From assembly GCF_963676935.1 (NCBI RefSeq), contig NZ_OY781470.1, positions 2,142,680 through 2,206,679 of the forward strand: a DNA stretch of 64,000 nucleotides. Direction: 5' to 3'. Position 1 is the stretch's first letter, and the number at the start of each line of letters is the position of its first letter. Under the pieces are notes generated by a model, which worked only from the letters and a program-made list of their open reading frames with translations, searched no databases and was not told where the DNA came from. This DNA comes from Halarcobacter sp. Its GTDB lineage: Bacteria; Campylobacterota; Campylobacteria; Campylobacterales; Arcobacteraceae. Below are positions 33,151-35,733 of this stretch, piece by piece. The translations under genes were made by a program, and so were the position numbers.

Positions 33151-33161
33151 AAGGAATAAAA

Positions 33162-33461
33162 ATGGCATATTGTTGTGATGTAGAACGAAAAAAACTTCAA
33201 AATAGGATTAACCGAATATCGGGTCAAGTAAATTCTTTAAAGAATAAATTTAATGATGAATCCTTTCATTTAGATAGTGACCCTTATGAGACAATTAGGC
33301 AACTTACTGCCATAAAAGGTGCTGTTAATGGAATGATTACTTCATATATTGAACACTATGCAAAAGGTCATATGATTAACAAAGTTAGAAATGGAAGTGA
33401 TATTGAAGCAGAAGCTCAAATAGATAATCTATTAGAGATAATAAAAGTATATGGAAAATAA
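33162..33461 (+). CDS. CsoR/RcnR (DUF156)-family metal-sensing repressor, DmeR-like
   Basis: A 99-aa all-helical repressor. KKLQNRINRISGQVNSLK is the family N-terminal helix and IRQLTAIKGAVNGMITSYIEHY the second. The Cys that usually begins helix 2 in this family is missing (SDPYETI here); instead there is a Cys pair at residues 4-5 (MAYCCDVERKK) and a His in IEHY. The metal site is therefore unusual. The gene overlaps or abuts a His-rich CDF transporter, the DmeRF arrangement for Co/Ni efflux. The start at 33162 has RBS AAAGGA. Confidence 0.85.
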   Translation: MAYCCDVERKKLQNRINRISGQVNSLKNKFNDESFHLDSDPYETIRQLTAIKGAVNGMITSYIEHYAKGHMINKVRNGSDIEAEAQIDNLLEIIKVYGK

Positions 33462-33462
33462 T

Positions 33463-34404
33463 ATGGAAACTTGCAAATTTGGATTAAATGAACATAAACC
33501 TTATCTAGGTGATACTCATCATCACGATCACGATGAACATCATCATGACAATGGGCATTCCCATGACCATAGAAAAGCTGATAAAAAAGTTTTGAAATGG
33601 GCGTTATCAATAACATTAATTACTATGTTTACTGAATTTTTTTATGGTTTTTTATCAAATTCTTTAGCTTTGATTTCCGATGCAATTCATATGTTTACCC
33701 ATTCTTTTGCTTTAATTATCTCTTTAGTAGCTATTATAATTGCAAATAAAAAAGCACCTATTGAAAAAACATTTGGATACTATAGAATTGAAGTTTTAGC
33801 TGCATTTATAAATGGAATTACAATTATATTATCAATATTTTGGATTTTATATGAAGCTGTTGAAAGATTTTTTAATCCACAAACAATAGATATAAAAATG
33901 GCAATGATAGTTGCAACTATAGGATTAATTGTTAATATTATCACTGGTGTAATTTTAATGCAAGGGGATAAAGAAAATATAAATCTAAAATCAGCATTTG
34001 TACATATGCTTAGTGATGCTTTATCATCTGTTGCAATTATTATTGGATATATTGTGATACATTTTACTTCATGGTATTTTATAGATGTTATTTTAGCAAT
34101 TTTAGTTGCGCTAGTAATTGGTAAATGGGCAAAAGATATTTTAAAAAATTCTATTAATACTTTAATGGAAGGTTCACCTGTTGATTTAAAGGAAATAAAA
34201 AGTTTTATTGAAAAACATGAAGAGGTTATAGAATTACATGATATACATATTTGGGAAATAACGCAAGATATGTATAATATGACTGCTCACGTAAAAATTG
34301 ATAAAAACTCTTTTGATAAATATGAAAAGATATTACATGAAATAAACCATGATTTAAAAGAAAAATTTAAAATAGTACATACAACTTTTCAATTTGAATG
34401 GTAA
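33463..34404 (+). CDS. CDF-family divalent metal efflux transporter, DmeF-like
   Basis: Inner-membrane cation diffusion facilitator, about 313 aa. The N-terminus is His/Asp-rich (GDTHHHDHDEHHHDNGHSHD), a metal-binding segment seen in DmeF and other Co/Ni/Zn exporters. Six helices follow, with the transport-site motif LISDAIHMFTHSFAL in TM2 and HMLSDALSSVAIIIG in TM5. The C-terminal cytoplasmic domain has ELHDIHIWEI and MTAHVKID. An alternative ATG at 33451 would overlap the repressor gene by 11 bases. Substrate Co/Ni/Zn cannot be resolved from sequence alone. Confidence 0.87.
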   Translation: METCKFGLNEHKPYLGDTHHHDHDEHHHDNGHSHDHRKADKKVLKWALSITLITMFTEFFYGFLSNSLALISDAIHMFTHSFALIISLVAIIIANKKAPIEKTFGYYRIEVLAAFINGITIILSIFWILYEAVERFFNPQTIDIKMAMIVATIGLIVNIITGVILMQGDKENINLKSAFVHMLSDALSSVAIIIGYIVIHFTSWYFIDVILAILVALVIGKWAKDILKNSINTLMEGSPVDLKEIKSFIEKHEEVIELHDIHIWEITQDMYNMTAHVKIDKNSFDKYEKILHEINHDLKEKFKIVHTTFQFEW

Positions 34405-34451: not shown

Positions 34452-34790
34452 TTATGCTACTTTTACTAATTTATCTTGTATAAAATCACTAAAAACACTT
34501 AATATTATCTCATCTTTTTTTACATTATAAACAGATACACCACATTTTGATAACTCTTCGAGTGGCAATCTTTTTTCATCATGAGATACTAATACATCAA
34601 AATGTTTTGTTTTACAATATTTGCAAAAACCTTCTAAATTATCATAAAATGGATTTTTAATAATATCTATACCATCGATATTCTGACCTTTACAGTGTAA
34701 TACTGTAAGATAATTAGCATGATAAAAACTATTTTCAACTTTTGAAATATAGCTTAATTTTTCTTGTGTAGGAAATACAACTTTAGTCAT
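34452..34790 (-). CDS. NifX/NifB-C-terminal-like protein (dinitrogenase FeMo-cofactor family)
   Basis: A 112-aa single-domain protein of the NifX/NafY/orange-protein type. KVVFPTQEKLSYISKVENSF matches the start of the fold, and ELSKCGVSVYNVKKDEIILS the end. It has two spaced cysteines in FCKYCKTKHFD, which could bind a metal or cluster. No nif genes are present in the window. In other bacteria such small proteins accompany a DUF134 regulator, as here (divergent, 35143). Expression appears to be controlled by the structured leader at 34796-34912. Confidence 0.65.
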   Translation of the reverse strand: MTKVVFPTQEKLSYISKVENSFYHANYLTVLHCKGQNIDGIDIIKNPFYDNLEGFCKYCKTKHFDVLVSHDEKRLPLEELSKCGVSVYNVKKDEIILSVFSDFIQDKLVKVA

Positions 34791-34795
34791 ATTCT

Positions 34796-34912
34796 CTCCT
34801 TGTAGGAATTAAAAAAAGGAGTTTAAAACATCAAGTTTTTATCAGGATGAGTGAAAAAAAGTAATGACTAGGGAAAAGACAATTATGTGTTATCCTAACA
34901 AAACTGATGTTT
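34796..34912 (-). promoter_or_regulatory. Structured leader RNA of the NifX-like gene (riboswitch candidate)
   Basis: On the minus strand AAACATCA-GTTTT (34912-34900) pairs with AAAAC-T-TGATGTTT (34839-34826), a 13-bp closing stem with one bulge. Inside it, TTAGGAT (34898-34892) pairs with ATCCTGA (34848-34842), 7 bp including a G-U pair, around a loop of about 43 bases. Immediately after, CTCCTT (34821-34816) is complementary to the Shine-Dalgarno AAGGAG (34801-34796). The layout, closing stem then SD-masking hairpin then start codon, is that of a translational switch. No known riboswitch class is recognised. Confidence 0.45.
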
Positions 34913-35045
34913 AAAAATATATTCCATTAAAGCTTATATTTATATACTATTTGTACAATAACGGAAACCAAAAAGGTTACCATGAGAGAAGATCACAAAT
35001 TTTATATTGTACTAAATATATTAAGTCAAACTAAATACTGCTTAG

Positions 35046-35085
35046 TGAACATATGACAGAATTGTATCACTTTTTTGAACATATG
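35046..35085 (+). repeat. Two TGAACATATG direct repeats, 30 bp apart
   Basis: TGAACATATG occurs at 35046-35055 and 35076-35085; both continue as (A/T)CA, and ACATATGT in the second is itself palindromic. The 30-bp offset is about three helical turns. They lie 58-97 bases upstream of the DUF134 regulator gene. The rest of the 34913-35142 gap holds AT-rich sequence with an imperfect inverted repeat (GGAAACC at 34963, GGTTACC at 34975). I infer an operator for this divergent region. Confidence 0.45.
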
Positions 35086-35142
35086 TCAAGTATTATTCAA
35101 TTAATCTATGGTAAAATTGAAATTATTAAATAAGGTATTTAT

Positions 35143-35733
35143 ATGGCAAGAGAAAAACTACAAAGAAAGTTAGAATTAAAGCCTGTATCAAAATATTTTG
35201 GCCCTAAAGATATAAAGGCAAAACAAGATGTAATACTGTTACATGAAGAGTTAGAAGCAATACATTTAATGGATTCTTTTTGTATGTATCAAGAAGATGC
35301 TGCAAAAAAAATGAATGTTTCTAGAGCTACATTTGCAAGAATTATAAAAAGTGCTAGAAAAAAAATATCTCTAGCTCTAATTACAGGAAGTAACATTAAA
35401 GTTCATGAGATTAAAAATGAATTTCATGTTGCGGTATGTTCAAATAGTAATACTGAACTTGAATATGCTGGTCCAGAAGCAAAATATGTTTGGATATTTT
35501 TTATTAAAGATTATAAGCTAAAGTCTGCAAATTGTATAGCAAACCCTGCATACAACAATGAAGATGATGCTCCATGTAATGTCTTACCTGACATTTTATA
35601 TGATTTTACAGTAAATTATTTTTTAATAGAAGATATCGATTACGATTTAAAAATCTCTTTAATTGCAAAAGGTATTTATCCTATCTTACAAGAAGAAGTT
35701 ACACAAGATGGCCTTGTAGGGATTTTTCAATAG
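35143..35733 (+). CDS. DUF134-family DNA-binding regulator with C-terminal NifX-like domain
   Basis: A 196-aa protein. The DUF134 part (about 1-90) shows VILLHEELEAIHLMDSFCMY and a helix-turn-helix YQEDAAKKMNVSRATFARII. Residues about 92-196 are unusual: EIKNEFHVAVCSNSNTELEY, GPEAKYVWIFFIKDYKL and ISLIAKGIYPILQEEV follow the strand/helix pattern of the dinitrogenase FeMo-cofactor (NifX-like) fold. It may therefore sense the same ligand as the divergent NifX-like protein. It has RBS AAGG and a strong terminator behind it. Confidence 0.75.
   Translation: MAREKLQRKLELKPVSKYFGPKDIKAKQDVILLHEELEAIHLMDSFCMYQEDAAKKMNVSRATFARIIKSARKKISLALITGSNIKVHEIKNEFHVAVCSNSNTELEYAGPEAKYVWIFFIKDYKLKSANCIANPAYNNEDDAPCNVLPDILYDFTVNYFLIEDIDYDLKISLIAKGIYPILQEEVTQDGLVGIFQ

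Follow-up and report, generated by a model that had tools for sequence, protein, structure and literature searches.

A strongly conserved structured leader RNA upstream of a NifX-like gene in the genus Halarcobacter

In the genus Halarcobacter, a gene for a NifX-like protein is preceded by a strongly conserved, undescribed structured leader RNA. The window, the whole stretch of 64,000 nucleotides of Halarcobacter sp. DNA that was analysed, carries the leader on its minus strand, and a protein search finds orthologs of the NifX-like protein in every one of the 16 genomes sampled from the genus. Each of these 16 loci contains a divergent DUF134 gene, two boxes around a promoter, a long leader, and the NifX-like gene, with the leader at a fixed position between promoter and gene. 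This position and a covarying structure are the features generally expected of a structured cis-regulatory leader RNA. The features of the window are as follows.

34452-34790, minus strand: NifX-like coding sequence of 112 aa, downstream of the leader (open reading frame, PF02579 similarity, predicted fold)
34796-34801, minus strand: Shine-Dalgarno sequence (SD) AAGGAG, from the sequence
34816-34821, minus strand: CTCCTT, SD-complementary and lineage-specific (2 of 16 orthologs)
34826-34912, minus strand: outer stem of domain B (34912-34902 with about 34836-34826); 10 consensus pairs, 2 compensatory, 99.3% of cells paired
34841-34899, minus strand: inner stem of domain B (34899-34892 with 34848-34841); 8 consensus pairs, 4 compensatory, 95.8% of cells paired
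34849-34883, minus strand: near-invariant pyrimidine-rich core ATTGTCTTTTCCCTAGTCATTACTTTTTTTCACTC, unpaired, in domain B; 98% mean pairwise identity
34913-34923, minus strand: conserved AATATATTTTT directly upstream of domain B; 90% identity, unpaired in the consensus
34953-35012, minus strand: domain A, the 5' hairpin domain; closing stem 35012-35005/34960-34953
34996-34984, minus strand: 5' bulge of domain A, GTGATCTTCTCTC
34981-34963, minus strand: hairpin of domain A, GGTAACC-GGTTTCC
35046-35058, unstranded: operator box TGTCATATGTTCA, shared with the divergent DUF134 regulator
35061-35089, minus strand: promoter TTGACA-17-TACAAT, conserved in the genus; 11/12 matches, TG before the -10
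35076-35088, unstranded: operator box TGACATATGTTCA, also shared with the DUF134 regulator
35143-35733, plus strand: divergent regulator with a DUF134 helix-turn-helix (PF02001, E 9.6e-16) and a probable NifX-like C-terminal domain

Sequence and fold place an outer stem, an inner stem, and an internal region within 34924-34822 of the minus strand. Both stems had been described in an earlier note, together with an enclosed region of about 43 bases, and they are present as stated; the region between the inner-stem strands (34891-34849) is exactly 43 nt. The extent given there, 34796-34912, captures this 3' domain but misses the upstream rest of the conserved leader, which reaches to about 35012. 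Transcription of the leader probably starts near 35050, and its length is roughly 260 nt.

When the window leader is folded alone, it is weakly better than chance (z = -1.69), and 13 of 200 shuffles fold equally well. With so small a z value the fold alone would not settle the structure; the comparison of 16 orthologous leaders, which yield 15 distinct sequences for covariation, does settle it. In domain B, 97.8% of the cells are paired and 6 of the 18 pairs have changed on both sides, values that none of 500 shuffles reaches, while the slid-alignment controls all fail (29-46% paired). Covariation of both stems in relatives, the check that had been proposed, is thus found. The 35-nt core is 98% identical among the 15 leaders, compared with 51% for the linker to the start codon and 54% for the third codon positions of the gene, and this difference from the third positions indicates that the RNA is under strong selection. 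Domain A is less conserved than domain B. Its two-stem arrangement is the MFE fold in 15 of the 16 leaders, support that comes from single-leader folds rather than from covariation in a formal alignment; its closing stem is interrupted in leader L006 and different in leader L014.

Searched with a covariance model of domain B, each of the 16 genomes gives a single hit and no more. Because the model was built from these same genomes, the hits there arise by construction, and the information lies in the single copy and in the absence elsewhere. No copy is found in other genomes among 250 relatives or, outside the genus, among 397 genomes drawn from the phylum. Within the window's genome the only full-length match is the leader itself, other matches being short AT-rich pieces, and collections of phage, plasmid, and viral sequences give no match to the leader.

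To our knowledge, few gene-control RNAs have been described in this phylum. The earlier statement that the leader belongs to no recognised class is borne out by Rfam 15, in which the leaders of the window and of eleven loci from relatives match no family at the gathering score and have no relevant match at a relaxed E-value. The Moco riboswitch candidates (RF01055) are among these unmatched families; their likeness to the leader is thematic only, through a gene possibly linked to Mo/Fe cofactors. The orphan riboswitch candidates of intergenic-region surveys (PMC6429828, PMC8632094, PMC11109978), as presented in the main texts, resemble the leader in being structured, covarying 5' leaders that have a highly conserved loop and precede a single gene; unlike them, the Halarcobacter leader is confined to one genus and absent from Rfam 15. 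Term searches of these main texts return no mention of the NifX-like gene. One of the surveys covered Arcobacter sp. L and, in its main text, left genus-confined motifs unnamed (PMC6429828). Literature searches on DUF134 together with NifX, and on riboswitches in Arcobacter, turned up nothing on the leader element.

The explanation we consider reasonably probable is a genus-wide cis-acting leader RNA whose core binds a metabolite, an ion, or an RNA-binding protein and alters the downstream message. The NifX-like gene would be transcribed from a promoter under the divergent DUF134 regulator, as the shared boxes suggest, and the leader of about 260 nt would fold into two hairpin domains. The almost invariant pyrimidine-rich loop of domain B would then serve as the recognition site, either as a small-molecule or ion aptamer or as a site for an RNA-binding protein, and binding at the core would change translation or stability of the downstream message, with a lineage-specific output. 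Translation or stability is proposed because no intrinsic terminator is present. What we infer in this scheme is transcription of the leader, action in cis, ligand binding, and the direction of control. A cis-acting leader is favoured by the covarying stems, the invariant core, the single copy, the constant association with the same gene, the strong conserved promoter, and the lack of a terminator, and also by a covarying leader before the ortholog in Malaciobacter, with a helix pairing the SD in 6 of 6. Counted against it are the variable linker and the lack of an expression platform conserved in the genus; in addition, a large pyrimidine-rich loop would also be typical of trans-acting antisense RNAs, and the Malaciobacter leader has no significant sequence similarity. 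Riboswitch is a plausible but tentative label for the leader, and its confinement to one genus and one gene means that it carries little information about a ligand.

A narrower version of such control, a riboswitch for a small molecule or metal in which CTCCTT sequesters the SD to act on translation, is possible but unlikely. It builds on the geometry of a translational ON/OFF switch proposed in the earlier note, which does not extend to the genus. In the window species CTCCTT (34821-34816) is indeed complementary to AAGGAG (34801-34796), and the SD is predicted to be 95% paired there and in a sister; CTCCTT is private to the window's genome and this 94%-identical sister and absent from the other 14 of 16. 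In 13 of these 14 the SD is paired no more strongly than with shuffled linkers; in the exception, L006, it is paired through a different pairing. Linker length also varies, from 9 to 43 nt. Since the antiSD:SD pairing occurs in only 2 of 16 orthologs, the CTCCTT expression platform does not belong to the element as such. A search for intrinsic terminators finds no terminator-like site for the leader, and thus the conserved expression platform expected of a riboswitch is absent. In Malaciobacter, pairing of CCTTT with AAAGG is kept in 6 of 6 leaders, which favours sequestration of the SD.

The nature of the gene bears on the ligand. At E values up to 1, 23 of 25 orthologs match PF02579 (best E 2.5e-6); the window protein alone has no Pfam match at 0.001. 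Its predicted structure (pLDDT 88.5) resembles PH0822, TM1290, TM1816, ORP, NifX, and NafY, with fold matches to 2yx6 (E 6.8e-9) and to NifX (9ian, E 4.7e-4). Profile and predicted fold mark the gene product as a divergent Nitro_FeMo-Co/NifX-type protein, in agreement with the first description of the regulated gene as NifX-like. Its likeness to the NifX / NafY / orange protein (ORP) family (PF02579) is one of predicted fold and profile similarity, and it differs from that family in that its gene is retained in genomes without nifH. Full-length NifH is encoded in 8 of the 16 genomes, whereas the leader and the NifX-like gene are present in all 16, which argues against a role restricted to nitrogenase and means that the nitrogenase cofactor is not a necessary ligand. 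The iron-molybdenum cofactor, which falls under the metal, cluster, or pterin ligands suggested before, is thus disfavoured, given the 8 genomes that keep the core without full-length NifH, and an SD-sequestering riboswitch for FeMo-co is unlikely for the same reason. Moco genes are found in 16 of 16 genomes and are uninformative on the ligand.

We regard it as rather improbable that the leader, as such or after processing, works in trans as a regulatory RNA with conserved C/U-rich single strands that pair with the ribosome-binding sites of other messages. The conserved unpaired segments UUGUCUUUUCCCUAG, GAUCUUCUCUC, and UUUUUUUCACUC are pyrimidine-rich and SD-complementary in kind, and a few complements with one mismatch sit at positions resembling an RBS. 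However, the 16 genomes contain no perfect 14-nt complement besides the leader itself, there is no conserved duplex with aceE, porG, or the leader's own start region, the DUF134 start gives a weak tendency only (mean z -1.17), and the leader does not end in a terminator. Target searches with 14-mer, 12-mer, and RBS-placed 8-mer complements found none conserved (30 of the 8-mer loci compared). In the window species the core can pair with the start region of its own gene (UAGUCAU with AUGACUA), a pairing that orthologs do not keep.

It is highly improbable that the region is conserved as DNA, as an extra operator or binding site. The intergenic region is a shared regulatory one with conserved operator boxes adjoining, but the conserved stretch lies downstream of the promoter, and this idea is largely refuted by the compensatory changes in both strands of the stems, which 0 of 500 shuffles match and which a DNA site would not need. 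A leader peptide or overlapping small ORF is barely conceivable as the source of conservation and largely refuted: the opposite strand carries ATGACTAGGGAAAAGACA within the core, but no frame survives the one-base indels in the T-run and in the variable flank, and L014 has lost the ATG.

The related genus Malaciobacter (g13, including Malaciobacter halophilus) has a different structured leader before its NifX-like ortholog; 4 of the 48 pairs in it are compensatory, and a CCTTT:AAAGG helix involves the SD. The six leaders (L018, L019, L021, L023, L024, and L025) share a domain core TTGTCTAGCCTAACATAC..CACTCCTC plus a TTTTTGTAAAAAC hairpin. Similar motifs in the leaders of the two genera (TTGTCT, CCTA, CACTC, CTCTC) fail to beat shuffles as a sign of homology, and because the alignment scores do not exceed those of shuffles, homology is not claimed. 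In Arcobacter sp. EP1 (L016, one sequence), a long leader with another set of hairpins precedes the NifX-like ortholog.

In the genus loci, two CATATGTTCA-like boxes flank the TTGACA-17-TACAAT-like promoter, and the DUF134 protein would bind them. Foldseek top hits for the C-terminal part of the regulator are all NifX-family, on a model of low confidence and with weak sequence comparison. This putative domain has invariant cysteines and may be a metal or cluster sensor.

The palindrome TGAACATATGTTCA, presumed to be the DUF134 operator, also occurs beyond the NifX-like/DUF134 region, at 1319336-1319349 (L096, own genome) and 157156-157202 (L097). In the window's genome one copy stands about 70 bases before aceE (PDH E1), which diverges there from a lipoate-ligase-like gene and lipA, and two copies lie in the interval from PFOR to porGDAB, the gene names being read from translations. 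Most genomes of the genus have it at aceE as well, and several have it at the por genes. This distribution suggests that the DUF134 regulator may control the step of pyruvate dehydrogenase and ferredoxin oxidoreductase. Sharing its operator with pyruvate dehydrogenase, lipoate, and pyruvate:ferredoxin oxidoreductase genes, the NifX-like gene falls into a regulon of central metabolism.

The setting of this undescribed structured RNA, whose 35-nt core is unusually rigid, is informative: a DUF134 regulator with a probable NifX-like domain, a NifX-like gene, and one operator shared with the PDH, lipoate, and PFOR/POR genes. It raises the testable question of what a stand-alone NifX-like protein and its leader RNA sense in organisms without nitrogenase. 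A doubtful possibility is that the leader represents a new class of riboswitch, or is bound by an Fe-S or NifX-type protein, and senses a signal of the pyruvate-oxidation switch; the NifX-like gene would then be under RNA-level control in addition to that by the DUF134 regulator. The switch is that between pyruvate dehydrogenase and pyruvate:ferredoxin oxidoreductase, and its signal would be oxygen, Fe-S, or lipoate status.

On the other side of the NifX-like gene, the window has a gene for a metal-sensitive repressor of the RcnR/FrmR type (33156-33461, PF02583), and a CDF cation efflux gene (33451-34404) begins inside it. This pair is convergent with the NifX-like gene; most orthologous loci carry aroC there.
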